A stretch of DNA of 64,000 bases from Saccharopolyspora gloriosae (GTDB lineage: Bacteria; Actinomycetota; Actinomycetes; Mycobacteriales; Pseudonocardiaceae): positions 310,001 through 374,000 of the forward strand of contig NZ_CP059557.1 of NCBI RefSeq assembly GCF_022828475.1, read 5' to 3'. Under the pieces are notes generated by a model that was not told where the DNA came from, searched no databases, and was given only the letters and a program-made list of their open reading frames with translations. This document shows, in pieces, positions 25,466 through 45,521 of this stretch. Every line of letters starts with the position of its first letter. Within the stretch, counting starts at the first letter, position 1. Both the position numbers and the translations under genes were made by a program.

Positions 25466-25625
25466 GTCTTGTCAGCGGCGAAGCCGATGAGCAGTGACCA
25501 GCCCGAGCAAAAAGACCACCGGCGGGTTCTCAGCGGCCTCTCGCGGGGACGGCGATTTCGCCGCGTATGAGACATACGTCAGAAATCGATCCCGCAGCGA
25601 GAAGGTCGCTGAGGTTCCGCTACCC
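25466..25625 (+). repeat. Long stem-loop intergenic element, copy A
   Basis: One of three related elements. It opens GTCTTGTCAGCGGCGAAGCC, runs through GACCACCGGCGGGTTCTCAG, and closes GATCCCGCAGCGAGA...CTGAGGTTCCGCTACCC. The flanks are nearly identical to the copies at 41474 and 45378, while the middle differs. In this copy the stem CTCAGCGG...CGCTGAG is imperfect. It lies between the convergent iclR and ppa genes. Confidence 0.85.
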
Positions 25626-25661
25626 GGACACCTGCGCAGGCCGTTCGGAGAAGAGAACGAC

Positions 25662-26150
25662 TCAGTGGCCCTGTTCCTTCGCGCGCTCGTAGGAGCGCTT
25701 GATCTCTGCTTCTGCCTCGGTGCGGCCGACCCAGGTGGCGCCTTCGACGCTCTTGCCGGGCTCCAGGTCCTTGTACACCTCGAAGAAGTGCTGGATCTCC
25801 AGGCGGTAGAACTCCGCCAGGTGGTGGATGTCGCGCAGGTGCTCCTGGCGCGGGTCGTCCGAAGGAACGCAGATGACCTTGTCGTCCCCGCCCTTCTCGT
25901 CCCGCATCCGGAACATGCCGACCGCGCGCGCGGTGATCAGGCATCCGGGGAAGGTGGGTTCCTGCACCAGCACCAAGGCGTCCAGCGGGTCGCCGTCCTC
26001 GCCGAGGGTGTCCTCGACGAAGCCGTAGTCGGCGGGGTACTGGGTGGCGGTGAACAACGTCCGGTCCAGCCGGATCCGGCCGGATTTGTGGTCCACCTCG
26101 TACTTGTTCCGGTTCCCCTTGGGGATCTCGATGGTGACGTCGAAGTCCAC
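25662..26150 (-). CDS. ppa: Inorganic pyrophosphatase
   Basis: Family I soluble pyrophosphatase, hydrolysing cytoplasmic pyrophosphate. GTG 26150 ([10 protein letters not shown]) has GAGGAA upstream and gives 162 residues, the normal actinobacterial length; the open frame to 26285 is not needed. The active-site signature is [11 protein letters not shown], with the usual YEVDHKSG and [10 protein letters not shown] before it and the KRSYERAKE ending. The gene is divergent from the giant carboxypeptidase gene, an order kept in mycobacteria (ppa beside a dacB-like gene). Confidence 0.95.
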
Positions 26151-26447
26151 GCGGTTCCTCACTCGTTCTCGCCAGCTTGCTCGTCGAGCCTGTGCCCGAC
26201 CGCCCGGCCGCCGTTGCCAGGCCGGTCCCGCATCCCGGTCCCGTACATCGTCAGTGTCCTGAACTGCGATGATTTCCTCAGTCACCGCACGGCGTCACCC
26301 GAGGTCGAGCCGCAGGCTCACACGTCGGAGTGGCCGCCCGTGATGCGGCACGACCACGTCTAGTGTGGACCACGGCCGCGCGCCGAGCCCCACCGCAGTG
26401 CGGCAGCTCGCATCTGGCAATCTTGCGAACCGTCGAGGAGGAAGCCC

Positions 26448-29400
26448 GTGCCCGAACCCCACAGCCTCAGGGGTGAGGTGTCCGAGCCCGACGCCACCGA
26501 GCAGTCCGCCAGTGCGACGGCCGCTTCAACGGCGGGTTCGCAGGGCGATGACCAGGGGCGCGATGCGGACGCCGAGCACCCCGAGCGGGATGGCGCGCGT
26601 GCGGAGGCCCAGCCCTGGCCGACGGAGCTCGAAGCCGCGGAGTCGGCCGGTGACGATCCCGGTTTTCCGGTGGAGGACCAGGAAAAGCCCGCGGCGTCGG
26701 ACTCCGAGAGTGCTGCGGACTCTTCGGCCGGGGAGGAGCGGAACGAGTCGGCCTCTTCCGGCGATGAACAGCCGGTGAACACTGATGCGGGCGAGGTCAC
26801 CTCGGCGGACGGGACCGGTGCAGCGCAGGCCGCGTCCACGAGGGGGTCGCTCACCGGGACGGTCCGGATCGATCAGGACGAGAAGTCCGCGAGCGGTGCG
26901 CCGGATGATTCCGCGGAGCAGGATTCAGGACCGGCCGAGTCCGGGACGACTGGTTCCGGGGTCGATGATTCGAGCGCCGGGGATTCCGCTTCCGGCGAAT
27001 CCGGCGCTGACGATGCGCGGGCCGATGAGCCGACGTCCGATTCCGATGCCGGTGGTTCCGGCGCAGGGGATTCGGGAACCGGCGATTCCGCCGCCGACGA
27101 GACCGGATCTAGCGGTTCCGCGAGCGGCGACGTCCAGGGTTCGGATCAGTCCCGGGCGGACGACGCCTCCACGGGCGACGACGAGCGGACCGGTCAGCGC
27201 GGCTCGGTCACCGGCACCGTGTCCGGGAAGCTGTCCGAACCGGAAGCGGCGGGCGAGCAGTCGACGAGCACGGCCGGGCCGGAGCAGGCGAGCGAAGACA
27301 CGGCGGCGGACGCCGGGCCGAGCGCGGGATCGACGGTCCGCGGCTCCCTTGAGAACACGGCTACCGGAGACGGGGCTACCGGAGACGGGGCTACCGGAGA
27401 CGGGGCGAGCGGGGACGGGGCGAGCGAGGGCACCTCGGGGAGCGCCGGTGCGGCCGCGCCCACGGTTCGGGCGGTGGGTTTCGTCGGATCGGTCGAACCC
27501 GCCGGGCGGGAGGCCGCCGCGCACGACTTCTCCGGTTGGCGAGCCGCGGGGTCCCAGGTCACGGGAATGATCTCGGGTGTGGAGCCTGCGGCCTCGGCGG
27601 TGCCGGACACCGGTGGAAAGGGCACCGGAGCAGCGTCGGAGACCGGCTCGGCCGACTCGGATTCCGCGGACGAATCCGAGGTTTCCGAATCCGGTTCTTC
27701 CACTTCCGAGCAGTCCGGCTCCGAGTCCGCTGGTTCGGAGTCCGCGGCGGCCGAAGAGTCCGAATCCGATTCCGCTGAATCGACGACTGCGGACTCGGTG
27801 ACCGGCCGCGTTGAGACCGTGGGTACGGACTCCGAGACCACGGAGTCGAAGGCCGGGGAGTCGAAGGCCGTCGAGTCGAAGGCCGTCGAGTCGAAGGCCG
27901 TCGAGTCGAAGGCCGGGGACGCCGGGACTTCGGATGCCGGAGTGCCGGATTCGACGTCCTCCGCCGCCGAGCAGGTCGGCTCCGAGCCCGCCGCCTCCGA
28001 GAAGCCCGCCTCCGAGCGGACCGCCGATACCGATACCGAGCAGGCGGGTTCGCCGACGCCGGGTGATCAGCCCGCCGAGGCGGATGCCGAACCGTCGGCG
28101 ACCGAAGCGAGTGGGTCCGGCGCGGACGCGGAGCCCGAAGGCACCGTCGATGGTGCCGCGGCGCCCGACGACGGGGCGCGGGAGAACGCCGCGACCACCA
28201 CCGGCCAGGACGAGTCCGGCCAGGCACACGACGGCGAGAGCCCGATCGAGCAGGGCGACCAGGACGAATCGCCTCGTTCGGGCGCGATCGAGTGGGCCGA
28301 GCAGGGCGACCAGGGCGAATCGCCTCGTCAGGACGCGGCCGACCAGGACGACCAGGACGAGCCGTCTCGTTCGGACGCGATCGAGTGGGCCGAGCAGGGC
28401 GAATCGTCTCGTCAGGGTGCGGTCGAGGAGGGCGACCAGGACGAGTCGTCTCGTTCGGGCGCGATCGAGTGGGCCGAGCAGGGCGAATCGTCTCGTCAGG
28501 GTGCGGCCGAGCAGGGCGACCAGGACGAATCGTCTCGTCAGGACGCGGACGAACAGGGCGACCAGGACGAGTCGTCTCGTCCGGATGCGGCCGAGCAGAG
28601 TGGCTCGGCCACCACGCCCGAGGCGGTCGAGAAGGAGCCGGAACAAGACTCGGCACGGCCTGAAACCTCCGACCGGGCAGGCTCGGTCGGAGCGGGCGCG
28701 TGGCCCGAGACCGCGTCGGCCGCCGAGGACACCGCGGCGGACGAGACCGCCACCCCCGAACCGGTCGAGGACGCCGAGACGACGGGGCCGCAACAACCGG
28801 TCCGGGACGCGGATCCGGCGGAGCCCGCGTCCGGTGTCTCCGCTGAGGCGGACACCTCGGCGGCACCACAGGTCGAACCGGTCGAAGACGTCGAGGTCAC
28901 CGGCCCGCAGCGAGCGGTGTCCGCGGACGCGGCCCCGAGCACCGATGCCGATTCGCGGAGCGAACCGGCGGATGAGTCCGAGAGCGTCGCCGAGCGGTCC
29001 GGGCCTCCCACGGAACGGCTCGACCGCCGAGCGCTCGCGGACTACGCGGCGGCCGCCGACCGCCGCGCGGAGAGCGACCGGCAGGAGACGACACCTACCT
29101 CCGACCGGGACGAGACCGGCGGAGCAGCCGCCGAACGCCCCACCGCCGAAACCGGCGGCCCGGCCACCGCCGCAACAGCCCCTGACGCGGCGACCGCCGA
29201 TGCGGTGAGCACCGACGAGTCGCCCGCCGACGAGGCGACCGCCGATGCGGTGGACACGGGGGATACCGAAACCACGAGCGGCGCGTCCGCCGATGTTCGG
29301 ACGGCTCGGGACTCGACCGCCGAGGCGGACCGGGACGCGACCGCCGATGTCGACGGCGGCCGGGACACGGTTGCCGATACCGGGACCAGCCGGGACGCCG

Positions 29401-31889
29401 AGGCCGACCGCGACGCGACCGCGGACGTGGAAACGACCGGCCGCTTCAGCGCCATCGACGACACGACGGCCCGCGTCGACCGGCGGCACGTCGACCAGCG
29501 CCTGGATGACCAGCGCCTGGATGACCAGCGCCTGGATGACCAACGGCCGGAATCCGATCGCGAGGACGCCCAGCGGCCGGACGAGACTCAGGCCGCCGCG
29601 AGCGGCACCGCCGCAAAGCCCGAGCGCGACGAGTGGCCCACCGCCGAGCAGGCGCGCATCGAGGCGGAACCCGAGGACACCGACGCCGCCGAAGCGGACT
29701 CCGCGTTCTCCGCGGATGCCGGAGCGGCACCGCCCTCATCCACCGACCCCCGGCCGCGCACCGAGCCGCCGCCCTCGGTGGAGGACTCCGCGTTCACCGC
29801 GGACTCGGGCACCCCGATCGGTCCGTCGCCCGTCGAGCAGACCCAGCAGTTCCGGCGGATCGAGGACACCCAGCGGTTCAACCTCGCCGATCTCGAAAAG
29901 GAGACCCGGCGCCGCGAGCAGGCGGACCAGCCGAAAGGTTCCCAGCCCGCCTACGAATCGCCGCAGGCGTTCCGCGAGGGAGACGGCCCCGCCGACCCGC
30001 GCACCGACGGCAAGCGCCCCGCCGAGCACGACGGCGCCCCCGGCGGTGGCCAGACCCAGCGGCCGCAGTCGTTCGACCAGGGGCCGCCGACCACCCGGAT
30101 CCCGATCGTCCCGCCCGCGCCGCCGCAGCCCGCGCGGCCGCCGGTGCCGGGTCCCTCGGACGCGGAGCGGACCCAGCAGTTCCGCCGCCCCGACTTCAGC
30201 GGCCCGCCGCCCGGCGCCCGGCAAGGGCAGTCCCAAGCCCAGCCCGCGCCGCCCCGGCCGACCCCGGCGCCTCCCCGGCAGCCGCAGCAGAGTCCGCAGC
30301 AGCAGAACCAGGCGCAGCAGAGTCCGGCGCAGCAGAACGAGCAGCAGAGCCAGGCGCGGTCGGCCCAGCCGCAGGATTTCGCCGCGCCCGCCGGTGCCTT
30401 CCAGCAGCCGCCGCTCCAGGACGCGCACCGGGCGACGCCGCAGCGCATCGAGCCCCAGGACGAACCCGAGCACGTCGAGCACGACGAACCGCAGCAGGTG
30501 GCCGAGCCGCGCCGCAAGCGGGCGACGGTCCTGCTGGCGGTGCTGACCGTGGTCGTGCTCGGCGCAGGACTCGCGGTGGGAGTGCCCGCGCTGATCACCG
30601 GGCTCAGCGCCGCCCGACTCGCCGACGCGCCCGCGCCGGTGCGGCTCTCCCCGTCGATCCGCCCGGTCGGCGCGAACGCCCCCGAACCCGGCAAGGCCGG
30701 GCTGGAGGCGGCGGTGCGCGGTCCGCTGTCGAACCCCGTGCTGGCGCCGGTCACCGGCGCCGTCGTGGACGTGCAGTCCGGGCGCAGCCTGTGGGAACGC
30801 GAGCAGAACCGGCCGATGATGCCCGCCTCCACCGGAAAGCTGCTCACGATGAGCGCGGCGATGCTGGCGCTCGACCACGACGCCCGGTTCACCACCAAGG
30901 TCGTGCGCGGCTCGGAACCCGGCAGCGTGGTGCTCGTCGGCGGCGGCGACCCGACCCTCTCCACGCTGCCCGCCGGGGAGGACTCGGTGTACCCGGGAGC
31001 GGCGCGCTTCGACGACCTGGCGGCGCAGGTGCGTGCCGCGACGGGCGGCCAAGTGACCTCGATCAAGGTCGACACCAGCCGGTACAAGGGCGATTCGAGC
31101 GCGCCCGGCTGGCTGCCCCAGGACATCCCGGACGGGATCATGGCGCCGATGGAGTCGGTGATGGCCGACGGCGGCCGCACGGACGACCCCACCGACGACT
31201 ACGGCGCACGCACCACCTCGCCGGCGGCGAAAGCGGGTGAAGAACTCGCCACCCGGCTCGGCCTGTCGGCCTCCGCGGTGTCGGAGGGAACGGCGCCGCA
31301 GAACGCGCAGGCCGTCGGTTCCGTCGAGTCGCCGACCATGCGCAAGCTGATGGAGACCACGCTGATCCACTCGGACAACGTGCTCGCCGAGGCGCTGGCC
31401 CGCGAGGTCGCCGTCAAGACCGGCAACGAGCCGTCCTTCGCCGGATCGGTGAAAGCGGTGCGCGAAGTGCTCCAGCGCAACGGCGTGGACCTCACCGGCG
31501 TGCAGATGTCCGACGGCAGCGGCCTGTCCACCGAGGACCGCATCCCGGCGAAGGTGCTGGCGGACCTGATGGCCACGGCCACCGCGCCGGAGCGCGACGG
31601 CGGGCTCTCCCAGCAGAGCTCGAAGTTGCGCGCGCTGCTGACCGGGCTGCCCGTCGCGGGCGGTTCGGGCAGCCTCGCCGACCGCTACGGCGACGGCGAC
31701 GGCCGCGGCTGGGTCCGGGCGAAGACGGGCACGCTGGACGGGGCGAACAGCCTCTCCGGCACGATCCTCACGCAGGACGGCAGGCTGCTCGTGTTCGCGC
31801 TGATGTCCAACAGCACCGCCGCCGCCGGCTCGGTGCGGCCCGCCCTCGACGAGGTCGCGGGCGCGATCCAGCAGTGCGGTTGCGGCTGA
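26448..31889 (+). CDS. dacB: D-alanyl-D-alanine carboxypeptidase/PBP4-type with a giant disordered cytoplasmic region
   Basis: GTG 26448 follows GAGGAGG. The 1813 residues fall in three parts. Residues 1 to about 1355 are Asp/Glu/Ser/Ala/Gly/Thr-rich, with no predicted fold and several short tandem repeats. A basic K-R then leads to a membrane helix near 1359-1382. The rest is a peptidase S13 domain outside the membrane. Its motifs are intact: SxxK in PASTGK (Ser about 1461), SxN in HSDN (about 1642) and KTG in RAKTGTL (about 1759). S13 enzymes trim peptidoglycan stem peptides. The homologous mycobacterial protein is near 460 residues, so the N-terminal part is an extreme extension. It could interact with cytoplasmic partners or be a length-variable spacer. 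Confidence 0.9.
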   Translation: MPEPHSLRGEVSEPDATEQSASATAASTAGSQGDDQGRDADAEHPERDGARAEAQPWPTELEAAESAGDDPGFPVEDQEKPAASDSESAADSSAGEERNESASSGDEQPVNTDAGEVTSADGTGAAQAASTRGSLTGTVRIDQDEKSASGAPDDSAEQDSGPAESGTTGSGVDDSSAGDSASGESGADDARADEPTSDSDAGGSGAGDSGTGDSAADETGSSGSASGDVQGSDQSRADDASTGDDERTGQRGSVTGTVSGKLSEPEAAGEQSTSTAGPEQASEDTAADAGPSAGSTVRGSLENTATGDGATGDGATGDGASGDGASEGTSGSAGAAAPTVRAVGFVGSVEPAGREAAAHDFSGWRAAGSQVTGMISGVEPAASAVPDTGGKGTGAASETGSADSDSADESEVSESGSSTSEQSGSESAGSESAAAEESESDSAESTTADSVTGRVETVGTDSETTESKAGESKAVESKAVESKAVESKAGDAGTSDAGVPDSTSSAAEQVGSEPAASEKPASERTADTDTEQAGSPTPGDQPAEADAEPSATEASGSGADAEPEGTVDGAAAPDDGARENAATTTGQDESGQAHDGESPIEQGDQDESPRSGAIEWAEQGDQGESPRQDAADQDDQDEPSRSDAIEWAEQGESSRQGAVEEGDQDESSRSGAIEWAEQGESSRQGAAEQGDQDESSRQDADEQGDQDESSRPDAAEQSGSATTPEAVEKEPEQDSARPETSDRAGSVGAGAWPETASAAEDTAADETATPEPVEDAETTGPQQPVRDADPAEPASGVSAEADTSAAPQVEPVEDVEVTGPQRAVSADAAPSTDADSRSEPADESESVAERSGPPTERLDRRALADYAAAADRRAESDRQETTPTSDRDETGGAAAERPTAETGGPATAATAPDAATADAVSTDESPADEATADAVDTGDTETTSGASADVRTARDSTAEADRDATADVDGGRDTVADTGTSRDAEADRDATADVETTGRFSAIDDTTARVDRRHVDQRLDDQRLDDQRLDDQRPESDREDAQRPDETQAAASGTAAKPERDEWPTAEQARIEAEPEDTDAAEADSAFSADAGAAPPSSTDPRPRTEPPPSVEDSAFTADSGTPIGPSPVEQTQQFRRIEDTQRFNLADLEKETRRREQADQPKGSQPAYESPQAFREGDGPADPRTDGKRPAEHDGAPGGGQTQRPQSFDQGPPTTRIPIVPPAPPQPARPPVPGPSDAERTQQFRRPDFSGPPPGARQGQSQAQPAPPRPTPAPPRQPQQSPQQQNQAQQSPAQQNEQQSQARSAQPQDFAAPAGAFQQPPLQDAHRATPQRIEPQDEPEHVEHDEPQQVAEPRRKRATVLLAVLTVVVLGAGLAVGVPALITGLSAARLADAPAPVRLSPSIRPVGANAPEPGKAGLEAAVRGPLSNPVLAPVTGAVVDVQSGRSLWEREQNRPMMPASTGKLLTMSAAMLALDHDARFTTKVVRGSEPGSVVLVGGGDPTLSTLPAGEDSVYPGAARFDDLAAQVRAATGGQVTSIKVDTSRYKGDSSAPGWLPQDIPDGIMAPMESVMADGGRTDDPTDDYGARTTSPAAKAGEELATRLGLSASAVSEGTAPQNAQAVGSVESPTMRKLMETTLIHSDNVLAEALAREVAVKTGNEPSFAGSVKAVREVLQRNGVDLTGVQMSDGSGLSTEDRIPAKVLADLMATATAPERDGGLSQQSSKLRALLTGLPVAGGSGSLADRYGDGDGRGWVRAKTGTLDGANSLSGTILTQDGRLLVFALMSNSTAAAGSVRPALDEVAGAIQQCGCG
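27360..27419 (+). repeat. 15-base tandem repeat in dacB (T-G-D-G-A unit)
   Basis: Four in-frame units of 15 bases; three are identical (GCTACCGGAGACGGG) and the fourth has changes that keep the frame. Confidence 0.85.
27843..27917 (+). repeat. 15-base tandem repeat in dacB (E-S-K-A-V unit)
   Basis: Five in-frame 15-base units beginning GAGTCGAAGGCC, encoding E-S-K-A-G or E-S-K-A-V. Near identity at synonymous positions points to recent expansion. Confidence 0.88.
28247..28605 (+). repeat. Degenerate acidic repeat array in dacB
   Basis: About 360 bases of alternating units encoding E-Q-G-D-Q-D-E-S-S-R-Q and A-I-E-W-A-E-Q-G. Whole blocks such as GCGATCGAGTGGGCCGAG recur, always in frame. Confidence 0.85.
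29499..29543 (+). repeat. 15-base tandem repeat in dacB (R-L-D-D-Q unit)
   Basis: Three in-frame copies of CGCCTGGATGACCAG, the last differing at its final base. Confidence 0.85.
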
Positions 31890-31947
31890 TCGGACGCGGC
31901 GGCGCAGCGGTGTCGCAGCCCAGCTCACCCGGAGTACGGTCGGTTTT

Positions 31948-33054
31948 GTGACTTCGCGATCCGCCACGCTGCCGCCCCGACCGCACAGCCGGGACGGAGC
32001 GCAGCGGACGCTCGACTGGGACCTGGCCGCGTCCACCGCCGGCCGGTTGATGCACACCGGACCTCAGGTCCCCCGTTCGGAGGCTGCGCACGCGGTGCGC
32101 GAACTCCGCCGGGCCAGCGTCGCCGCCGAGAGCCACGTGCGGGAGCTGACCGGACTCGGCCTGGACCTGCCGGTGCTCGAAGGCGATGTGGTGGACCGCA
32201 CCGAGTGGGTGCGTGCGGCCGCGCGCGGGTTGTCCGAGCTCACCGGCATCGCGATGAGCTCCCGCGCCACCGGAACCGATCTGCTCGGCGGGCTCGGAGT
32301 TCGCGGCGCCGGAGTGCAGGCCGGGCTGGTGCTGTCGTACCTGGGCACCAAGGTCCTCGGGCAGTACGACCCGTTCCTGCCCAGCGACCAGGGCACCCGG
32401 CCGGGGCGGCTGCTGCTGGTGGCGCCGAACATCGTGGCGGCCCGCCAGGCGCTGGACGTGCCCGCGGACGACTTCACCATGTGGGTGTGCCTGCACGAGT
32501 CGACGCACCGCTTGCAGTTCAACGCGGTGCCGTGGCTGCGGGACCACTTCGCGGACAGCCTTGGCGAGCTGCTGTCCGATCTCGACTCCTCGCCCGGTGA
32601 GCTGCTGGGCAGGCTGCCCGCCGTGGTGCGTGGGGTGCGAGACGGGCCGGACGCCCAGTCCAGCCCGGGCATGCTCGGGCTCGTGGAGCTGCTGCAAGGT
32701 CCCCGGCAGCGCGCCGCGCTGGATCGGATCCTGGCGTTGTCGACGTTGCTGGAAGGGCACGCCGACCACGTGATGGACGCCGTGGGGCCGGAGGTGGTGC
32801 CCAGCGTGGCCACCATCCGCCGCCGGTTCACCGAGCGCCGCCAAGGCGGCGGCCTGCTGGACCGGCTGCTGCGCAGCGTGCTCGGCGTGGACGCGAAGAT
32901 GCGCCAGTACGCGCAGGGCGCGGCGTTCACCCGCCACGTCGTGCGAGAGGTCGGCATGGACGGCTTCAACGCGGTGTGGACCTCACCGGACCACCTGCCC
33001 ACCCGCGCCGAAACCACCGACCCCGCCGCCTGGCTCCGCCGCATCCACGGCTGA
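31948..33054 (+). CDS. Zinc-dependent metalloprotease of the DUF2342 (zincin-like) family
   Basis: Predicted soluble metallopeptidase, sometimes annotated as coenzyme F420 biosynthesis-associated. GTG 31948 gives 368 residues. The zinc-binding HExxH is HESTH near residue 183, and the downstream EGHADHVMD near residue 269 supplies the expected third ligand region. Other family marks are the N-terminal WDLAAS and RTEWVRAA, and the C-terminal MRQYAQGAAF. No signal peptide is visible. In mycobacteria it lies, as here, between the dacB-like gene and tilS. Substrate unknown. Confidence 0.87.
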   Translation: MTSRSATLPPRPHSRDGAQRTLDWDLAASTAGRLMHTGPQVPRSEAAHAVRELRRASVAAESHVRELTGLGLDLPVLEGDVVDRTEWVRAAARGLSELTGIAMSSRATGTDLLGGLGVRGAGVQAGLVLSYLGTKVLGQYDPFLPSDQGTRPGRLLLVAPNIVAARQALDVPADDFTMWVCLHESTHRLQFNAVPWLRDHFADSLGELLSDLDSSPGELLGRLPAVVRGVRDGPDAQSSPGMLGLVELLQGPRQRAALDRILALSTLLEGHADHVMDAVGPEVVPSVATIRRRFTERRQGGGLLDRLLRSVLGVDAKMRQYAQGAAFTRHVVREVGMDGFNAVWTSPDHLPTRAETTDPAAWLRRIHG

Positions 33055-33085
33055 TCCCCGCTCGACCCGTCGCACCCCGAACCAG

Positions 33086-33190
33086 GTCAATGCCACCTTC
33101 GACCGGCCCCCTTGGTCGAATGGGCGATTCACCCGGTGCCTCTGGTGCGGTCAACCTTCGACCGGTCCATCGGTCTGCGGGGCCATTCAC
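33086..33190. repeat. GTGAA-type intergenic hairpins, copies 3 and 4 (degenerate)
   Basis: Two imperfect inverted repeats, roughly 33086-33132 and 33149-33190. Each holds CCTTCGACC and ends GATTCAC or CCATTCAC. They lie between the metalloprotease gene and tilS, which read in the same direction. Confidence 0.6.
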
Positions 33191-33258
33191 TCCTGGGGCT
33201 GCGAGCGGCGGATCGTGGGGTCTCCGGGGTGTGTCGGGGTGGGGCACACAATGGGGCG

Positions 33259-34281
33259 GTGACCTCTGGTTCCGGTCTATCCGCCCGCTCCGCCGGGACG
33301 GCGATGCTCGAAGTGCGGGCCGCGGTTCGCGGTTTCCTCGACGCCACCCCCGGTGCGCGGCAGGGGCCGCTCGCGGTCGCCTGCTCGGGCGGTGCCGACT
33401 CCCTCGCGCTCGCCGCCGCCACCGCCCACGTGGCGCGCAAACAGGACCTGCGGGTGTGCGCGCGCGTCGTTGACCACGGACTCCAGGACGACTCCGGCGC
33501 GGTCGCGGCTCGCGCCGCCGAACAGCTCGGCGAGCTCGGATTCGCGGACGTCGAGGTGCTGCCGGTGCGGGTGAGCGGCCCCGGCGGCCCGGAAGCGGCG
33601 GCCCGCCGAGCCCGGTACGCCGCACTCGACGAGGCCCGGCCCGCCGGGGCGGCGGTGCTGCTCGGGCACACCCTCGACGACCAGGCCGAGACGGTGCTGC
33701 TGGGCCTCGGTCGCGGCTCCGGAGCCCGCTCCATCGCGGGCATGCGCCCGTGGGATCAGCCGTGGGCGCGGCCGCTGCTGGGCGTCTCGCGGGAGACCAC
33801 GGTGCGTGCCTGCGCCGAGTTCGGACTGCGACCGTGGCAGGACCCGCACAACGGCGAGAGCCGGTTCACCCGTGTGCGGTTGCGCACAGAGGTCCTCCCG
33901 CTGCTGGAGCACGTTCTGCAAGGCGGAGTCGCGGGCGCGCTGGCCCGAACCGCCCGCCAGTTGCGGGAGGACGCCGACGCCCTCGACGCGGTCGCCGGAA
34001 CGGTCCGCTCGCAGGTGGAGCGGGGTGCGGACCTGGACGCCGCGGCCTTGGCGACGCATCCGCCCGCGATCCGGCGACGGGTGCTGCGCGGGTGGTTGCT
34101 GACGAGCGGGATCACCGAGATCTCCGACGCGCACCTGCGCGCGGCCGACGCGCTGGCCGGTGCGTGGCGCGGTCAAGGACCGCATGCGCTGCCGGGCAAC
34201 TTTGTGCTGCGCCGGGCGCATGGCAGGCTTCAGGTGGAACGTGGTGGACGGGGAACCGCCGGGCCGGTGAGCGGCGGGTGA
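33259..34281 (+). CDS. tilS: tRNA(Ile)-lysidine synthase
   Basis: ATP-dependent enzyme that converts C34 of the tRNA-Ile CAU anticodon to lysidine. I use GTG 33259; ATG 33304 is a possible alternative and the frame back to 33112 crosses a repeat. The PP-loop motif is [10 protein letters not shown] near residue 43. It is followed by [21 protein letters not shown] and [15 protein letters not shown], all typical of TilS. The C-terminal part is short, as in other actinobacterial forms. The hpt start is about 35 bases downstream, an order widely conserved (tilS-hpt-ftsH). Confidence 0.92.
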
Positions 34282-37648: not shown

Positions 37649-37680
37649 CCGCCTCGCTCCGAGAGCGACAAGACCGGACA

Positions 37681-37713
37681 GGGGCACCGTCGCACGCCGA
37701 CGGTGCCCCTTTT
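37681..37713 (+). terminator. Intrinsic terminator after ftsH
   Basis: A perfect 12-base-pair stem (GGGGCACCGTCG with CGACGGTGCCCC, five-base loop) followed by TTTT. It separates ftsH from the folate operon. Confidence 0.92.
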
Positions 37714-37745
37714 CGGTGCGGTGTGAGCCGGTGAAGGAGCAACAC

Positions 37746-38378
37746 GTGATCAGCAATCTCGGTGCCGGACGGGACGACTCCCGGCCGGGCGGTACCGGTT
37801 CCGATCGACCGGCTTTCGACCAGGAACGGGCTTCGGCCGCGATCCGGGAACTGTTGCTCGCGGCAGGGGAGGACCCGGACCGGGAAGGTCTGCGGGACAC
37901 GCCTGACCGGGTGGCCCGTGCCTACGAGGAACTGTTCGCCGGGCTCTACACCGACCCCGACGAGGTGCTCGACCGCACCTTCGACGAGGCGCACGAAGAG
38001 CTCGTGCTGGTCCGCGACATCCCGATGTACTCCCAGTGCGAGCACCACTTGCTGCCGTTCCACGGGGTCGCGCACATCGGCTACATCCCGAACGAGAAGG
38101 GCCGGGTCACCGGCCTGTCGAAGCTGGCGCGGCTGGTGGACCTGTACGCGAAGCGCCCCCAGGTGCAGGAGCGGCTGACCTCGCAGGTCGCCGACGCGTT
38201 GGCGCGGAAGCTGGAGCCGCGCGGCGTGATCGTCGTCGTGGACGCCGAGCACCTGTGCATGGGAATGCGCGGGGTGCGCAAGGCGGGTTCGACGACGACG
38301 ACCTCCGCGGTGCGCGGTATCTTCCGCAGCTCCGCCTCTTCTCGCGCCGAGGCGTTGTCGTTGATCAGAGGTTCGTGA
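37746..38378 (+). CDS. folE: GTP cyclohydrolase I
   Basis: First enzyme of folate synthesis, converting GTP to dihydroneopterin triphosphate. GTG 37746 has AAGGAG seven bases upstream. The 210 residues include a variable N-terminal leader of about 25 residues and the zinc site CEHHLLPF (Cys about 98), with the third ligand in [23 protein letters not shown] is also conserved. It is the first gene of folE-P-B-K; its stop overlaps the folP start in ATGA form, indicating coupled translation. Confidence 0.96.
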
Positions 38379-39223
38379 TGAGCGTGTTGCTTCCCCGGCC
38401 CGGCCGGTGCGCGGTGATGGGCGTGCTGAACGTGACGCCCGATTCGTTCTCCGACGGCGGCCGCTACCTGGACCGCAAGGCCGCGGTGGCGCACGGCGTC
38501 GACATGTTCGAAGCCGGCGCCGACATTATCGATGTGGGCGGTGAGTCGACGCGGCCCGGTTCGGATCGGGTGGCGGCGGGCACCGAGATCGAGCGGGTGC
38601 TGCCGGTGGTGGCGGAGCTGGTCGACGCCGGTGTCCCGGTGAGCGTGGACACCACGCGCGCCGAGGTCGCCGCGGCCACCGCCGAAGCGGGCGCCTCGGT
38701 GATCAACGACGTGTCCGGCGGGCTGGCCGATCCGGACATGGCGCGGGTCGCCGCGGACACCGGGGTGCCGTGGGTGCTGATGCATTGGCGCGGTCACAGC
38801 CGGGACATGAATTCGCTGGCCGAGTACGGCGACGTGGTCGCCGAGGTGCGTTCGGAGCTGCTGGCCCAGGTCGACCTGGCCTTGCGGGCGGGTGTCCGGG
38901 AGGACGCGATCGTGCTCGATCCGGGGCTGGGCTTCGCGAAGACCGGGGAGCACGACTGGGCCTTGCTGCACCGGCTGAGCGAGTTCGTCGGCTTGGGCTT
39001 TCCGGTGCTGGTGGGCGCCTCGCGGAAGCGGTTCCTCGGCAAGTTGCTGGCCGAGGACGACGGCACTCCGCGCGCCCCGGCGGGCCGCGAGACGGCCACG
39101 GCGGTGGTCTCGGCGCTGGCCGCGGATCGCGGCGCGTGGGCGGTGCGGGTGCACGATGTGCGGAGTTCGCTGGACGCCGTCGCGGTGACCGCGGCGTGGA
39201 ACGCCGGAGGGACCGTTGGCTGA
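38378..39223 (+). CDS. folP: Dihydropteroate synthase
   Basis: Joins p-aminobenzoate to the pterin pyrophosphate; the target of sulfonamides. The start overlaps the folE stop. The 281 residues show [42 protein letters not shown] and the sulfone-loop-adjacent VGASRKRF. This is a complete, standard FolP1. It overlaps folB by 8 bases. Confidence 0.96.
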
Positions 39224-39593
39224 CCGGATCACGTTGACCGGGTTGCGGGTGCGCGGCAACCACGGGGTTTTCGAGCACGAGAAGCGCGACGGCCAGGAGT
39301 TCCTGGTCGACATCACGGTGTGGGTGGACCTCGCCGGTGCGGCGGCCGACGACGACTTGGCGCAGACGTTGCACTACGGCGAGCTGGCGCAGCGCGCGGC
39401 GGACATCGTGGCCGGGCCGTCGCGGGACCTGATCGAGACGGTGGCCGCGGAGATCGCCGACGGCATCATGGACGACCGCCGAGCGCACGCCGCGGAGGTC
39501 ACGATCCACAAGCCGTCCGCGCCCATCCCGCTGACCTTCGCCGACGTGGCGGTCACGATCCGCCGCTCGCGGCGCGCGGCCCGGAACGGTTGA
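39216..39593 (+). CDS. folB: Dihydroneopterin aldolase
   Basis: Cleaves dihydroneopterin to hydroxymethyl-dihydropterin and glycolaldehyde. It uses a TTG start at 39216, inside the end of folP. The 125 residues hold [20 protein letters not shown], with the conserved GxHGV region, then LHYGELAQ and the catalytic-Lys-bearing [10 protein letters not shown]. Length is normal for the tetrahydrobiopterin-fold subunit. Confidence 0.95.
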
Positions 39594-39597
39594 GGCG

Positions 39598-40101
39598 ATG
39601 AGCAGGGCGGTGCTGTCCCTCGGTTCGAACCTGGGGGACCGGTTGGCGCACTTGCAGTCGGCCGTGGACGGGTTCGCCGAGTCGGTGGTGGCGGTATCGC
39701 CGGTCTACGAGACCGCGCCGTGGGGCGTCACCGACCAGCCGGACTTCCTCAACGCGGTGATCGTCGTGGCGGCCGCGGACGTGGACGAATGGGGTTGGCT
39801 GCGGCGCGGCCAGGAACTGGAGCGCGCGGCGGAACGACTGCGGGAACGCCGCTGGGGTCCCCGCACCCTGGATGTGGACGTGGTCACCGTGGACGGTGTG
39901 CGCGGCGCGGACCCGGAGCTGCTGCTGCCGCATCCCGGTACGCCCGATCGGGCCACGGTGCTGATCCCGTGGTCGGTGGTGGAGCCGGACGCGGTGCTGC
40001 CGGGCCACGGCCCGATCGCCGAGCTGATCAGCGCGCTGCCCGCCGCGGACCTCAACTCCGTGCAGCGCCGCGACGACCTCCCCTTGCACCTCCCGAGCTG
40101 A
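39598..40101 (+). CDS. folK: 2-amino-4-hydroxy-6-hydroxymethyldihydropteridine pyrophosphokinase
   Basis: Activates the pterin for FolP using ATP. ATG 39598 lies four bases after the folB stop. The 167 residues begin LSLGSNLGDR, continue YETAPWGVTDQPDFLNAV, and have the magnesium-binding RWGPRTLDVDVV and LPHPGTPDRATVLIPW. It closes the folate operon. Confidence 0.95.
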   Translation: MSRAVLSLGSNLGDRLAHLQSAVDGFAESVVAVSPVYETAPWGVTDQPDFLNAVIVVAAADVDEWGWLRRGQELERAAERLRERRWGPRTLDVDVVTVDGVRGADPELLLPHPGTPDRATVLIPWSVVEPDAVLPGHGPIAELISALPAADLNSVQRRDDLPLHLPS

Positions 40102-40289
40102 ACGTCCCCTTCGCCCGGTGGGATCGGTCAAAGGGGCCATTGACGCCAGAGGCGGTCTCGGGTGAAGGAGGCATGGCTCCGGAGGTGATCTCGGGTGAAT
40201 GTCTCCTTCGCCCGGTGGGATCGCCAAAGGGGCCACTGGCTTCGGGTGAATGTCTTTCTCGCCCGGTGGGGTTGGGCGAAGGGGTCATG
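40099..40289. repeat. GTGAA-type hairpin array, copies 5 to 7
   Basis: Three related units (about 40099-40143, 40195-40240, 40246-40289), each carrying TCGCCCGGTGGG with complementary CCTT/AAGG arms and a GTGAATG or TGAACG entry. A spacer with GGCATGGCTCCGGA recurs twice. They fill the space between folK and the convergent MerR gene. Confidence 0.72.
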
Positions 40290-40327
40290 GCTCCGGAAGC
40301 GGTCGGGTCCGGGTGGTGCGTGCGGAA

Positions 40328-40361
40328 CGGCCCGCTCGACCGATGCCGGTCGAACGGGCCG
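40328..40361. terminator. Hairpin terminator between folK and the MerR gene
   Basis: A 15-base-pair stem (CGGCCCG-C-TCGACCG with CGGTCGA-A-CGGGCCG) lies between convergent genes and is followed by CTCGTTCT on the plus strand. Confidence 0.7.
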
Positions 40362-40445
40362 CTCGTTCTGGTGTGCCCGGCCAGGGTGGATACCCCCAAG
40401 GATCCACCCCGCCCGAGGCGGTCGGTGCCGTGCGCCCTACCTCGA

Positions 40446-41393
40446 TCAGGGCAGGGTGGCGCGCACGGCGTCGGCGAGCCAGTGCGCCTGCCGCTCGGTG
40501 GTGGGGTGCGGCGGCCAGTCGTTGATGATCGCCAGCAGCTCCCAGTACCGGGACAGTCGCTCGTCGTAGGGCGCCCCGAAGCTGTCCGCGAGCTCGGCGC
40601 GCGCGGCCGGGCCGTCGGTCGAGCCGTTCTGACGTGCCCAGAGCTCGGCGGCGTGCTCGGCCAGTTCCCGGCCGCGCTCAGAGTCCGGGGTGTGCCCGGC
40701 CTCCTTGGCCTGCTCGATGTCCTCGAACAGCGTCCACCAGCGCGCGGCCTCCTCCTTCGTCCGCACCGGCGTGGCATCCTCGCCGCCGGCCTGCGCGGCC
40801 TGCTGCTCCCAGAGCCGCCGCACGGTGGTGCGGAAGTCGGAGTCCCCGACGAGCTCGGCGAGTTCGATCCACGCCTCCACCTGCTCGGTGCTCGGGTCGT
40901 CCGGGAGTTCCGGTTTCGCCGAGCGCATCCACGCCGCGAACTGCTGGTCCACGTCGAGGCCGCCGATGGTCTCGTCCCAGAACTCGTCGATGAGCCGGTT
41001 GCGCTCCGCGTCGGACATCGTCGCCAGCTTGTGCATGAGTTTCACCTCTTCGGTCGATCGGTCCAGGTGTACGACCGCTCGCAGCACCGCGCGGCGGGTC
41101 CGCAGCAACCGCATCTGGTCCTCCAAGAGGGCCAGTTGCGCCTCGGCGAGCCGCCGCACCGAGGTCTCCTCGGCCAGGACGCGGCGCACCTCGTCGAGCC
41201 CGGCCCCGAGCTCGCGCAGGGTGCGCACCAGTTCCAGCCTGGCTATGGCGGTCACGTCGTAAAGCCGATAGCCGGAGTGCGTGCGGTCGGTGGGCGGCAC
41301 GACTCCGCTGTCGGAGTAGAACCGGATGGTCTTCACGCTCAGCCCGGTGCGCCGGGAGAGCTCTCCGATCGTGTAGCGCTGCGCGTCGTCCAC
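40446..41393 (-). CDS. MerR-family transcriptional regulator
   Basis: Predicted DNA-binding regulator of 315 residues. I chose GTG 41393 (V-D-D-A-Q-R-Y-T-I-G-E-L), since a MerR-type promoter just upstream would leave the earlier GTG at 41420 untranscribed. The N-terminal winged helix (YTIGELSRRTGLSVKTIRFY, then GYRLYDVTAIARLELVRTL) is followed by the dimerisation coiled coil and a roughly 200-residue C-terminal helical domain containing WWTLFEDIEQAKEAGHTPDS. The C-terminal domain lacks the cysteines of metal sensors, so it probably binds an organic ligand. It faces away from DUF3180. Confidence 0.88.
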   Translation of the reverse strand: MDDAQRYTIGELSRRTGLSVKTIRFYSDSGVVPPTDRTHSGYRLYDVTAIARLELVRTLRELGAGLDEVRRVLAEETSVRRLAEAQLALLEDQMRLLRTRRAVLRAVVHLDRSTEEVKLMHKLATMSDAERNRLIDEFWDETIGGLDVDQQFAAWMRSAKPELPDDPSTEQVEAWIELAELVGDSDFRTTVRRLWEQQAAQAGGEDATPVRTKEEAARWWTLFEDIEQAKEAGHTPDSERGRELAEHAAELWARQNGSTDGPAARAELADSFGAPYDERLSRYWELLAIINDWPPHPTTERQAHWLADAVRATLP

Positions 41394-41400
41394 GAGATGA

Positions 41401-41431
41401 ACCCTCGACCTTCCAGCCACTGGAGACTCAA
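41401..41431 (-). promoter_or_regulatory. Predicted MerR-type operator-promoter
   Basis: On the minus strand a -35-like TTGAGT (41431-41426) and a -10-like GAGGGT (41406-41401) are separated by 19 bases. The spacer contains the dyad CCAG-TGG-CTGG. An overlong 19-base spacer with a dyad inside is the hallmark of MerR-controlled promoters. Transcription would start within a few bases of GTG 41393, so the mRNA may be leaderless. The -10 match is weak. Confidence 0.55.
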
Positions 41432-41473
41432 GTCCCTTTTCGAAATCGCTTCGGAGTGGTCTGCGTAGGGGGC

Positions 41474-41630
41474 GGGTAGCGGAACCTCAGCGGCTTCCTC
41501 GCTGCGGGATCTTTTTCCCGAGTGGCTCCAACGAGGGAAAAGCCGTCCGCGCGAGGAAGCCGCTGAGAATCCGCCGGTGGTCGTTCTGCTCTAGCTGGTC
41601 GCTGCTCATCGGCTTCGCCGCTGACAAGAC
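41474..41630 (-). repeat. Long stem-loop intergenic element, copy B
   Basis: Minus-strand copy of the element also seen at 25466 and 45378. Its stem is perfect: CTCAGCGGCTTCCTCGC pairs with GCGAGGAAGCCGCTGAG. The interior carries TTTTCCCTCGTTGGAGCC and GGGAAAAAGATCCCGC. It lies between the divergent MerR and DUF3180 genes, so it cannot be simply a terminator. Confidence 0.88.
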
Positions 41631-41730
41631 ACTGATCGGCCGATCGACCCGCGTCGATCGGCCGGTGCCTTGCGGGATGGTCCGCGTGGAGTGCGATGCT
41701 GGAATGGTGGCACCTCGGCAGCAGGAACGG

Positions 41731-42195
41731 ATGACGTTCACGCAGGCGCGGCAGTTGATGTTGGCCGCCTTGATCGCGGCGGTGCTGGCGTACGTCGGTT
41801 CGCGCCTGGCCTACGGCGGGTTGCCCAGGCTGCCCGCGTTGGCGGGGGCGACGTTGCTGGTGATCGCGGTGGTCGACGTGCTGCTGGCGGTGGCTCTGCG
41901 GCCGCGCATCCGGCGCAAGCCGGGCACCGAGCCGGTCGACGCGCTGCCCGCGGCGCGCGCGGTCGCGTTGGCGAAGGCGTCCTCGATGGCCGGGTCGATC
42001 ATGGGCGGGGTGTGGATCGGGCTGCTCGGTCACCTGCTGCCGCTCCAGGACACGATGCAGGCCGCCCGCGACGACATGACGGCCGCGGTGATCGGCTTGA
42101 TCAGCGCGTTGGCGCTGGTGGCCGCCGGACTGTGGCTGGAGCACTGCCTGCGCAACCCGGACGACCCCGAAGAGCCCTACGACGACGAGGACTGA
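41731..42195 (+). CDS. DUF3180 membrane protein
   Basis: Small integral membrane protein of about 154 residues. I prefer ATG 41731 (M-T-F-T-Q-A-R-Q), with AGGAA upstream; ATG 41704 would add nine residues. Four hydrophobic segments are visible, with LAYVGSRLAYGGLPRLPALA, LRPRIRRKPG and ALAKASSMAGSIMGGVWIG, the conserved core of DUF3180. The acidic ending DPEEPYDDED is also typical. In mycobacteria the equivalent gene directly follows folK; here a repeat array, a MerR gene and element B have come between. Function unknown. Confidence 0.85.
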   Translation: MTFTQARQLMLAALIAAVLAYVGSRLAYGGLPRLPALAGATLLVIAVVDVLLAVALRPRIRRKPGTEPVDALPAARAVALAKASSMAGSIMGGVWIGLLGHLLPLQDTMQAARDDMTAAVIGLISALALVAAGLWLEHCLRNPDDPEEPYDDED

Positions 42196-42420
42196 TCCCT
42201 CGCCGTTCTTTCGCGGTAGCAAGGACCGGCAACGATGAGCCGGAACCTGCCGCACAACCGCCGAGTCCGGCGATCGAGCTGGGCGAACTCCGAGATTTCT
42301 CTTGCGCGCCAACGATTTCATGGCCCGTTCGGGGCATTCGGGCTGGTCCGGTTCGCCGAACCGCAGTTCGCTCCGTTCCCTGCGGGTCTCGATCGGATAA
42401 AGGCCGGGTACCGTGGGGCC

Positions 42421-43517
42421 ATGTCCGCCCCTGGCCGTTCCGCAGCCGCTGACCAGCGTCCGTCGGTGTTATGGGTCGGCGCCTTGGTCTTAGCCGCCGC
42501 CGCGACCGCGATCCTGGTGCTGAGCAACGACTCGCGGGTGCTCAAGCTGGGACTGGTGGCCGCGCTGTGGGCCGCGCTGCTGGGCGCGTTCGGCGTCGCG
42601 AAGCTGCGCGCCAAGGCGGCCGACGCCGCCGAACGGGAAGCGGAACGCCAGCGCGTCTACGAGATCGAACTGGAACGGGAGATCGCCGCCCGCCGCGAGT
42701 TCGAGGCGACCGCGGAGGCAGAAGCACGCCGCACCGCGGCCGCGGAGTCCGACGCCGAGATCCAGGCGCTGAAAGCGGAATTGCGCGCCCTGCGGGAGAA
42801 CTTGGAGAAGATGCTCGGCGGTGACGTGCTGTTCGAGCGCGTCGCGCTGCGAGCGGAGTCCACTCGGGTGCGTTCCCTGCCGGAACGCCCCGCCGCGACG
42901 GGCGAGCAGCCGCGGTTCATGTCCGGTGACACCGGCGCGCACCCGCGGATCATCCAGCAGACCGATGGATCCGGCAGGCAGCTGCCCGCCGGCTATCAGG
43001 GCCAGGTGGAGCCTCCGGCGCCGAACGAGCAGGTGCTGCCCCGGACTCCCGTCGAGCAGCCCCCGCCGCGCCCGTCGAAACCGCGCAAGTCCCGGCCGCA
43101 GCAGGGCAGGCCCGCGCCGCGGCAGGCAGCCGACACGCGCAAGCAGCGCCCGGCGCAGACCGGGAACCAGGGCGCGTGGCCGGAGTCCACTTCGGACCGG
43201 CTGCGCCCGGTCCAGCCCGAGCAGGCAGCGGCGCAGGCCGTTCCGGACACCGCCCACGCCCGTCCGGCAAGCCCTCCGCAACAGCCTCCCCCGAGCAGTC
43301 CCCGGCAGCCCAGCCGTACGCGGCCGCGCACACCGCTCAGCAGGCCGCTCCGGCGCCGCCCGAGCCCGACGCCGGCGACGCCGAGCGCCGCACGCCGACC
43401 CGGCAGGTCGAGGCGGGCGCGCACACCGAGGGCACCTCCGTCGTCGACCTGCTCGCGGCCTACGGCGACTCCGACGCGCAGCCGGAACCGAAGCGCCGCC
43501 GCCGTCGCCGCGCCTGA
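42421..43517 (+). CDS. DUF6779-like membrane and coiled-coil protein, with a probable frameshift
   Basis: ATG 42421 opens a protein with two membrane helices (LWVGALVLAAAATAILVL and LKLGLVAALWAALLGAF), a long Glu/Arg/Ala coiled coil (EREAERQRVYEIELEREI) and a Pro/Gln-rich linker. Near 43288-43292 the open frame leaves the expected path: it runs on as Arg/Pro-rich sequence to 43590, while the +1 frame reads AAHTAQQAAPAPPEPDAGD, then TSVVDLLAAYGDSD and a poly-Arg end at 43517. The V-x-D-L-L-A-A-x-G ending with a basic tail is what related actinobacterial proteins show. One missing C in the CCCCC run would explain this. Function unknown; the gene sits between DUF3180 and the PrsW gene. Confidence 0.75.
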
Positions 43518-43652
43518 CTCGGCTGCACCGCACCGATTCCGCAGGCAGGAACGGGTGGAGACGCCGATCCCGCGACCGGTCCAGCGGTGAACATCGGGTA
43601 ATGCCGCCCCAGGCGGTGTAGGACGAAGACCCCGCGTTCTAGGGTTTCGGGC

Positions 43653-45188
43653 GTGTCCACACCTGATCTCTCCGGTCCTGTGCCCGACATCTCCGGTGCG
43701 CGCAGGTTGCAGACCCGCAAGCATTCCGCGGTCGGCTGGCCGGTCGCCGGGTTGTTGCTGCTCGGTGTCATCGGCCTGGTCATGGTGGGTGTCGCGACCT
43801 CCAGGGTGGGCGTGCTGCCCGCGCTGGTGGGCGCGTTGGCGGCGTTGATCCCGGTCGGCGTGGTGTTCGCCGCGATCGTGTGGATCGACCGCTGGGAACC
43901 GGAGCCGCCGATGCTGATGCTCGGCGCTTTCCTGTGGGGCGCGGGCGGAGCGACCGGCTGCTCGCTGCTGCTCAACGACTCCGTGATCGGCCTGGGCGAG
44001 CTGCTGTTCGGGCCGAGCGACCACGTCTTCTTCGAGCGGGCGCTGATGGCTCCGCTGGTGGAGGAGGCCGCGAAGGCGCTGTTCGTGGTGTCGCTGTGGT
44101 TCTGGCGGCGTTCGGAGTTCAACGGCCTCGTCGACGGCATCGTCTACGCGGGCCTGACGGCGGCAGGTTTCGCGTTCACCGAGAACATCCTGTACTTCGG
44201 CAAGGCCTTCTCCGAAGGGGGCTGGGGCAGCGCCACCGGTGGTGTGGTCGCGGTGTTCATCCTGCGCGGGATCTTGGCCCCGTTCTCGCATCCGCTGTTC
44301 AGCTCGATGGTGGGCATCGGGATCGGGCTGGCCTCACGGACCACGGACACCACGAAGCGCGTGCTGTGGCCCGCTGCCGGGTTCCTGCTCGCGGTGGTGC
44401 TGCACGCCGCGTGGAACGCGTCGACGCTGCTGGGCGGCACGGGCTTCCTCAACGTGTACTTCCTGATCATGCTGCCGATCTTCGCGGGCACCGGTTGGCT
44501 GGTGACGTGGCAGCGCAAGCGGGAGCAGCGCATCGTGGCCGATCAGCTTCCGGTGCTGCAGCGGGCCGGGCTGATCCCGCGCAGCGAGGTGGAGATGCTG
44601 GCCTCGCTGGCGGGCCGCCAGGGCTGGCTGCGCAAGGTGCGCAGGAGCGCGGGCGCGGAGGCCGCGAAGGCCGTGCGGGACTACCAGATCGCCGTGACGG
44701 AGCTGGCGTTCCTGCAGCACCGGGCCGCGGAAGGGCGCACGACGAGCGCGGTGCGGCGGGCTCGCCGGGAGCAGCTGATCGAGGAGCTGAAGGCTGCGCG
44801 GCGCTCGGCCGTGGGCTCGCAGGAGGCGTTCCAGACCGCGCGGGTGAAGATCCACGAACTGACGCAGAGCGTTCGCCGTCCCGGTTCCCGGCCGCAGCAG
44901 CCGGTGCCGCAGCAGGGGGCTCAGCCGCAGGGTGAGCGTCCGCAGTCCGGCGGCGCCCGGCAGGAGGCGTCCCGACCCGACCTCACTCCGCAGACCGACC
45001 CGCGGCGCGCACCCCAACAGTCCCAGCCCAGGCAGTCGCCGCAGCAGCCGTCCCGCCCGGCGCCGCCCCCCGGGCCTCCGCAGCAACCCCAGAGCAACCC
45101 CCAGCAGCAAAACCCGCCGGCACCCCGCAGAGCACCTCAACAGCCCCCGAACCGCCCGAACCCACCAGGCCAACCGCCTCGGCAGTGA
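43653..45188 (+). CDS. PrsW-family intramembrane metalloprotease with a disordered tail
   Basis: Membrane protein of 511 residues from GTG 43653. Eight or so hydrophobic segments are visible. The PrsW/CPBP-like motifs are present: EEAAK near residue 137, FTENILYF about 35 residues later, HPLFSS, and HAAWNAS. Members of this family are thought to cleave membrane-embedded anti-sigma factors or other proteins; no such partner is adjacent. After the membrane part comes a basic helical region (AVRRARREQLIEELKAARRS), then about 110 Pro/Gln-rich residues. It is the last gene before a repeat-rich gap. Confidence 0.85.
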   Translation: MSTPDLSGPVPDISGARRLQTRKHSAVGWPVAGLLLLGVIGLVMVGVATSRVGVLPALVGALAALIPVGVVFAAIVWIDRWEPEPPMLMLGAFLWGAGGATGCSLLLNDSVIGLGELLFGPSDHVFFERALMAPLVEEAAKALFVVSLWFWRRSEFNGLVDGIVYAGLTAAGFAFTENILYFGKAFSEGGWGSATGGVVAVFILRGILAPFSHPLFSSMVGIGIGLASRTTDTTKRVLWPAAGFLLAVVLHAAWNASTLLGGTGFLNVYFLIMLPIFAGTGWLVTWQRKREQRIVADQLPVLQRAGLIPRSEVEMLASLAGRQGWLRKVRRSAGAEAAKAVRDYQIAVTELAFLQHRAAEGRTTSAVRRARREQLIEELKAARRSAVGSQEAFQTARVKIHELTQSVRRPGSRPQQPVPQQGAQPQGERPQSGGARQEASRPDLTPQTDPRRAPQQSQPRQSPQQPSRPAPPPGPPQQPQSNPQQQNPPAPRRAPQQPPNRPNPPGQPPRQ

Positions 45189-45220
45189 ACAACCCACGCC
45201 GAAAGCTCCTCAACGACGAA

Positions 45221-45361
45221 GCCGTGCTTTCGGCGGCGAAGCCCGCGAAGGGCGGGCGAAGCCACGCCTGCCTTGCGGCCGTAGGCCGTGCTTTGCGGCG
45301 TAGCCGTGCTTTCGGCGGCGGAGTCCGCGAAGGGCGGGCGAAGCCACGCCTGCCTTGCGGC
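45221..45361 (+). repeat. 59-base direct repeat, two units
   Basis: Units at 45221-45279 and 45303-45361 differ at two of 59 positions. Each begins GCCGTGCTTTCGGCGGCG and ends CCACGCCTGCCTTGCGGC. The 23-base spacer contains a partial unit (GGCCGTGCTTTGCGGCG), and a further partial unit (GAAGCCGTGCC) follows. The array runs straight into the long stem-loop element. Confidence 0.92.
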
Positions 45362-45377
45362 GAAGCCGTGCCTGTAT

Positions 45378-45521
45378 GCGCGTCAGCGCATAGCCCACGT
45401 AAGCAGGGCGACCACCCGCGGGTTCTCAGTTGGTCTCTCGCGAGGACAGTTTTTTCCCTCGTGGCGGAGCCACTTGGGAAAAAGATCCCGCAGCGAGAGA
45501 CCAACTGAGGTTCCGCCACCC
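45378..45521 (+). repeat. Long stem-loop intergenic element, copy C
   Basis: Third copy. Its stem is perfect but has a different sequence: CTCAGTTGGTCTCTCGC pairs with GCGAGAGACCAACTGAG. The flanks (GACCACCCGCGGGTT and CTGAGGTTCCGCCACCC) and the interior TTTTTTCCCTCG...GGGAAAAAGATCCCGC match copy B. It lies between the PrsW gene and the DUF2520 gene, which read in the same direction. Confidence 0.9.

Follow-up and report, generated by a model that had tools for sequence, protein, structure and literature searches.

Here, we study a stem-loop element that is found in three copies (A, B and C) within the window, i.e., a 64,000-nt stretch of Saccharopolyspora gloriosae (contig NZ_CP059557.1, positions 310,001 to 374,000). 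The copies probably belong to a non-autonomous mobile element that resembles a miniature inverted-repeat transposable element (MITE) and carries a conserved structured core. Copy number, size and empty sites are those of a MITE; terminal inverted repeats (TIRs) and target-site duplications are present only in part. Where they are found, they suggest that some of the copies have a partner of the IS5 type. That is, copies of one type (type 1) would be moved in trans by IS5-type transposases. The short targets TNA, CTTAG and CTAG would often occur at stop codons, such that insertion would put the element behind genes. Dispersed copies would overwrite one another and thereby shuffle the heptamers of their stems as modules, and the core may be kept as its plus strand has to fold, be it in the form of RNA or of single-stranded DNA while the element moves.

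The first-pass annotation of this DNA had reported three copies with common flanks and interior, which a direct reading of the window confirms at the positions listed in Table 1. It had further described the stem arms as different in sequence yet paired, with exact complements in B and C. This holds for B and C, whose 17-nt arms are exact complements with middle heptamers that differ between the two copies. In A, the left arm is one base short and one pair is G.T. RNA folding assigns energies of -65.1, -65.6 and -67.2 kcal/mol to the cores of A, B and C (z-scores -6.0, -7.0 and -8.9, respectively), and 0/200 shuffles fold as well as any of them. With regard to the 5' part, A and B are of type 1, and C is of type 2 with a small-hairpin array upstream, which is a feature of type 2. 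At 45189-45375 as well as at other type 2 copies, the interval between stop codon and element is occupied by such small hairpins in tandem, with GAA-like loops.

A strict pattern (GATCCCGCAGCGAG-N(4-9)-CTGAGGTTCCG) matches 176 times in the 6.88-Mb source genome (one contig; 91 forward, 85 reverse), compared to 0 matches of the reversed pattern used as control. Chance repeats are thus rejected. The first-pass annotation would have been refuted by a genome search with no further copies, or with further copies whose arms are unpaired and whose flanks are lost. The outcome was the opposite, i.e., many additional copies in which the arms pair and the flanks are preserved. At first look, searching the source genome with DNA gave 439 candidates, 40 of which were scored. 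A profile search locates 17 copies within the contiguous 204 kb around the window, from which we infer by extrapolation about 570 copies per genome. For the source genome, we use a set of 121 copies, of which 118 are full (3 partial ones left out); 1/118 lies inside a called open reading frame (ORF).

The element is not restricted to this species. Named matches of a one-base-longer pattern are from several Saccharopolyspora, Halopolyspora algeriensis and Actinopolyspora biskrensis. A covariance model (R1) built from 64 copies matches in 6/6 genus genomes, with at least 150 copies in each of three and 141, 48 and 43 in the others. Across the family, R1 finds the core in 68/249 genomes and 14/46 genera, using stricter filters by which weak matches are lost. 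When 17 positive genomes were searched again at an E-value of 0.01, 1-4 copies each were found. For the window, Rfam 15 reports a single tRNA at the gathering cut-off and no match to the element; for seven element loci screened at E up to 5, it gives three chance-level matches, all below cut-off. No description of this element family was found in the open-access literature. The statement of the first-pass annotation that no named family matches is thus in line with Rfam, and its suggestion of a REP- or MITE-like element was right.

The core of about 115 nt comprises a 17-bp stem (P1), an internal loop (GAGGACAGC / GATCCC) and the inner helices P2 and P3. The middle seven pairs of P1 vary with both sides changing; the internal loop is conserved, and P2 and P3 are variable. 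We evaluated a four-helix structure (including an outer helix P0), stated beforehand by the analyst, on an alignment of 40 cores that are mostly from other genera. For these cores, mostly found with the pair-aware R1, which favours pairing, 93.5% of 1432 cells are paired; shuffles reach 78.1%, and registers that were slid reach 34-50%. Two-sided changes are observed in 224 cells vs. 71 in shuffles (0/500 shuffles as high). P1 is 99.3% paired with two-sided change in 11/17 pairs, P3 92.8%, and P2 82.4% with 2/7 pairs unpaired in half of the sequences; P0 is 90.8% paired and shows two-sided change in one pair only. That is, the core has a conserved fold with covariation, as seen in functional structured RNAs.

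A small hairpin 5' of the core was detected by a simple finder in 89/110 copies of other genera, 69 of them with a GNA loop (GGA 34, GAA 17, GCA 12, GTA 6). Loops of the form C(GNA)G have a high stability in DNA. PMC4686876 mentions a stabilising mini-hairpin DNA. Copies L317, L331 and L325 of genomes G108, G087 and G149 have about 50 nt extra within the stem, placed between the P3 strands in L325; in L317 and L331, the insertion is next to the right arm.

Next, we consider on which strand the stem folds. We used matches in 30 genomes of a model (R2) that was built from sequence only, because a pair-aware search would favour wobbles. Here, 80 places were hand-picked among the best-scoring R2 matches listed, and 104/110 copies from other genomes could be parsed for the count (2 unparsed, 4 with unequal arms). 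Read as plus strand, their stem cells are 1560 Watson-Crick (WC), 169 G.T, 15 A.C and 25 other, and 74/104 stems are fully paired. Per copy, 88 lean towards G.T, 5 towards A.C and 11 are tied, with the caveat that stem positions 6-11 account for most wobbles and that common descent accounts for many. Since a plus-strand G.T reads as A.C on the other strand, it is the plus strand whose folding is maintained, which is compatible with RNA as well as with single-stranded DNA. Counter to the trend, G056 has 10 G.T vs. 7 A.C and G019 has 0 vs. 1. The source genome shows no clear strand bias (24 G.T vs. 18 A.C), and the six outermost inner pairs lean slightly in the reverse direction (21 G.T vs. 30 A.C in the source genome, 27 vs. 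32 at other loci). Parsing losses amount to 8/118 source-genome copies and 12/161 other copies, and pair counts are missing for 7/54 loci.

A comparison of flanks also revealed orthologous element loci. At one of them (locus X), five species of another genus have the element at the same place and in the same orientation, and in three of the five genomes it is the sole copy found. The arms have a mean identity of 72-75%, compared to 90% for the interior and 91% for the side towards the facing gene. One stem has 17 WC pairs and three have 16 WC and 1 G.U; L313 has 13 WC, 1 G.U and 3 mismatches. Two pairs switch between C-G and G-C, i.e., both sides have changed. Exchange between copies is now impossible at this locus because one copy is left, and lost copies may have taken part earlier. 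The claim of compensatory change made for copies A to C therefore stands in so far as pairing is kept and coupled change in place is observed in another genus.

The faster evolution of the locus X arms, which yet remain paired, would also fit a process without selection on the fold. In quasi-palindrome correction, one arm is erroneously used as template for the other during replication, which would keep drifting arms complementary. We consider this explanation improbable, since the strand bias of the wobbles, the conserved internal loop, the pairing in P2 and P3 and the recurrence of discrete heptamers are left unexplained by it.

Within the source genome, the heptamers follow a different pattern. 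Perfect heptamers are present in 82/110 parsed copies and are of only 12 kinds. Among 65 copy pairs with at least 95% identity outside the heptamers, 20 have the same heptamer, 44 differ at 3-5 of the 7 sites and 1 differs at one site. Nearest neighbours share a heptamer in 34/110 cases, compared to 12.3 in 1000 shuffles (maximum 26). At eight aligned sites shared with the relative G003 (A, C, 78k, 107k, 145k, 156k, 199k and 202k), the heptamers differ at 8/8, by one base at C and 156k and by 3-7 bases at 78k, 107k, 145k, 199k and 202k; A is imperfect. Given that 44/65 pairs differ at 3-5 sites and only one at a single site, stepwise compensatory mutation is not favoured as the source of these differences. 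For the difference between B and C, which had been read as compensatory, an exchange of discrete modules in the arms would thus fit better than stepwise compensation. That is, the pattern would arise because dispersed copies exchange tracts that span both arms. Exchange alone does not account for the persistence of several heptamers.

Three type 2 copies (910460, 896564 and 1243608) have type-1-like 3' ends, which we take as a sign of exchange between types. The source-genome copies at 466481, 667018 and 1357711 have an extra 3' flank of about 60-80 nt in common (GGAAGTAATCACTAAA...), such that copying here seems to have involved a larger unit. A broader reading, which we put forward only tentatively, is that an old structured replicator, spread across the family and bound to fold as one strand, forms the core and has switched between carriers (TNA-type TIRs here, CTAG-flanked ends elsewhere, hairpin arrays in type 2). 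The seven-pair segment could then be an interchangeable, two-sided discrete address that is swapped between copies, resulting in a small set of co-existing stem types per genome.

Evidence for mobility comes from sites, terminal repeats and a candidate partner. Filled and empty orthologous sites are found in both directions among the source genome, G003 (90.8% identity) and G004 (87.4%), based on about 204 kb compared. The two best TIR-bearing type 1 copies are flanked by the duplications TGA..TGA and TTA..TTA, and TNA duplications are usual for IS5-family elements. The check suggested at the outset thus yielded empty sites, short of an exact junction, and target-site duplications for a part of the copies. 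The TIR pattern has 62 matches in the source genome, and the numbers for five relatives are 12, 10, 33, 1 and 11, compared to 0 for controls. For 25 TIR pairs 80-250 bp apart, whose core presence was checked only for copies examined individually, the outer 3-mers are equal in 12, and in 11/15 among those with TNA at both ends (hand count).

Four TIR pairs of the source genome enclose an identical 908-bp insertion sequence (IS) at four different sites, each copy flanked by TTA/TTA within CTTAG. It encodes an intact 280-aa DUF4096/DDE transposase. The terminal repeats of type 1 resemble those of this IS (L240:821-1728, 908 bp between TTA repeats), i.e., GGAGTCCTTGCAGAATG vs. GGGGTCCTTGCAGAATG, and both have the TNA target class. 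The element lacks the 280-aa transposase that the IS encodes, and the resemblance is to the ends of the IS, not to its interior. Two of the four IS copies are located in or beside elements (L253 near 1737642, L444 near 4833597), one in a type 2 5' hairpin region and one behind an element-like 3' end. TIR pairs only about 83-108 bp apart are found in the source genome (2854886-2854989, 3015092-3015186, 5486859-5486954) and in G003 C1 (3850587-3850669, 5207816-5207911, 5928816-5928923). As these are too small for the core, they could be mini-MITEs that have no core and belong to the same IS group. For copies of other genera, CTAG is present in 25/110 left flanks (at 50-59 nt from the core in 16) and in 22/110 right flanks (20 sites at 20-39 nt); both flanks have it in 8. 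About 0.015 are expected per flank, where TAG stop codons contribute to the observed numbers.

Several observations weigh against a MITE-like mobile element. An exact empty site was not found in a comparison from which close strains are absent. With a loose cut, TIRs are recognisable in 6/52 type-1-like source-genome copies, i.e., in a minority only, and no copy in the window keeps them. Type 2 copies (65/121) are without the type 1 TIR. The 908-bp IS has no match at E 1e-30 in 4/6 genus genomes, and G003 has divergent pieces of it only. Element ends in other genera differ from those of the source genome, and among the seven copies shown with CTAG on both sides, three have 10-12/22 matching end bases and four have 3-5. 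Finally, the core is better conserved than the TIRs, which is unexpected for a plain MITE.

The placement of the element was assessed using a simple gene caller for 116 source-genome copies with both neighbours called (one edge case and one case inside an ORF left out). For 87/116, a neighbouring gene on the opposite strand has its stop codon towards the element; 22 copies are co-directional, and 7, including B, are divergent. The convergent, divergent and tandem contexts described for the window therefore all occur, but are not evenly mixed. The median distance from core end to stop is 25 or 28 nt (usually about 20-35 nt), and where the gap is 60-160 nt, a terminator-like hairpin is often located between element and stop (by eye). 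Respective numbers for other genera are 77/105 copies facing a stop (5 edge cases of 110 left out) with medians of 29 and 31 nt; 23/28 copies face a stop in low-copy genomes. Short targets at stop codons together with selection against gene hits could cause this placement, which does not cover the orientation preference.

Placement is also the basis of a different view, namely that the element is a structured RNA useful to the host or a portable module of gene ends, acting as a terminator or 3'-end stabiliser, and that its spread by mobile ends is incidental. In its support, the sequence and fold of the core are conserved across 14 genera and at single orthologous loci, the distance to the facing stop is fixed, 42/42 tandem cases in other genera are 18-53 nt from the stop, and copies sit directly behind a stop codon or, by eye, behind a terminator-like hairpin. 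On the other hand, the foldable strand is the plus strand (see the excess of G.T over A.C above), which is antisense to the facing gene and not its mRNA. Hairpins at element-free sites of relatives also do not clearly stand out from the background, i.e., 4/8 vs. 26/105 have hairpins of at most -36 kcal/mol, a small sample in which 3/8 places are, by extrapolation, not at a stop codon. In sum, we regard the gene-end module as rather unlikely. The candidate explanation that the element replaces a lost terminator fits its position and gains no support from the same hairpin comparison. Since most copies are located where one would expect a terminator, the statement of the first-pass annotation that the element is not just a terminator is only a possibility.

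The MITE-like reading can be related to known systems. In the review PMC2229807, ERIC, RUP and Correia/NEMIS are described as short, non-coding, dispersed intergenic MITEs that can form long stem-loops; for RUP, TIRs in common with an IS provide the link to it, and ERIC is located near genes, with effects in mRNA that depend on its orientation. Our element is likewise short, non-coding, intergenic, dispersed and stem-loop-forming, with an IS link by TIRs, as for RUP, in a part of its copies. In contrast, its core is better conserved than its ends, the heptamers of its stem fall into discrete types that involve both sides, its target is TNA/CTAG instead of TA and its hosts are GC-rich actinomycetes.

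With REP/BIME/REPIN elements, it has in common the high copy number, hairpins at gene ends and more than one stem type in a genome. A REP/REPIN system with a RAYT (TnpA-REP) transposase as its mover would match these high-copy intergenic hairpins and co-existing stem types, and single-strand transposition would suit the one-strand signal. Nevertheless, we consider it highly improbable. The Y1_Tnp domain (PF01797) has 0 matches in the source genome, for which a RAYT partner is thus rejected, and few among positive relatives (6/30 other positive vs. 5/14 control genomes). REPs are much smaller than the hairpin of the element, whose core of about 115 nt with a conserved internal loop further sets it apart.

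Table 1. Location of element parts in the window (positions within the 64,000-nt stretch).
Feature	Positions	Strand	Basis and remarks
Copy A small 5' hairpin, GAA loop (TCAGCGGC-GAA-GCCGATGA)	25472..25490	+	sequence reading; common to type 1 copies
Copy A main hairpin P1-P3	25529..25613	+	RNA folding; left arm 25529-25544, right arm 25597-25613
Copy A core	25516..25630	+	profile match; 31 nt on, stop of facing minus-strand gene 25662-26162
Copy B small 5' hairpin, GAA loop	41606..41624	-	sequence reading; type 1 feature
Copy B main hairpin P1-P3	41486..41567	-	RNA folding; exact 17-nt arms 41567-41551, 41502-41486
Copy B core	41470..41580	-	profile match; genes on either side divergent
Small-hairpin array (GCGGCGAAGCCG-like)	45189..45375	+	between the ORF 43680-45188 stop codon and the start of type 2 copy C
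Copy C type 2 small 5' hairpin (ATGCGC-GTCA-GCGCAT)	45376..45391	+	sequence reading
Copy C main hairpin P1-P3	45425..45509	+	RNA folding; exact 17-nt arms 45425-45441, 45493-45509
Copy C core	45412..45526	+	profile match; tandem gene context

The element provides an unusually clean natural record of a fold that is kept while its sequence changes, which rests on many copies per genome and on orthologous loci with coupled changes in the two arms. With this record, one can test if the fold to which small mobile elements are held is that of RNA or that of single-stranded DNA. The respective model represents a family absent from Rfam 15 and is useful for genome annotation, and the finding bears on how the genomes of antibiotic-producing actinomycetes gain portable gene-end hairpins.

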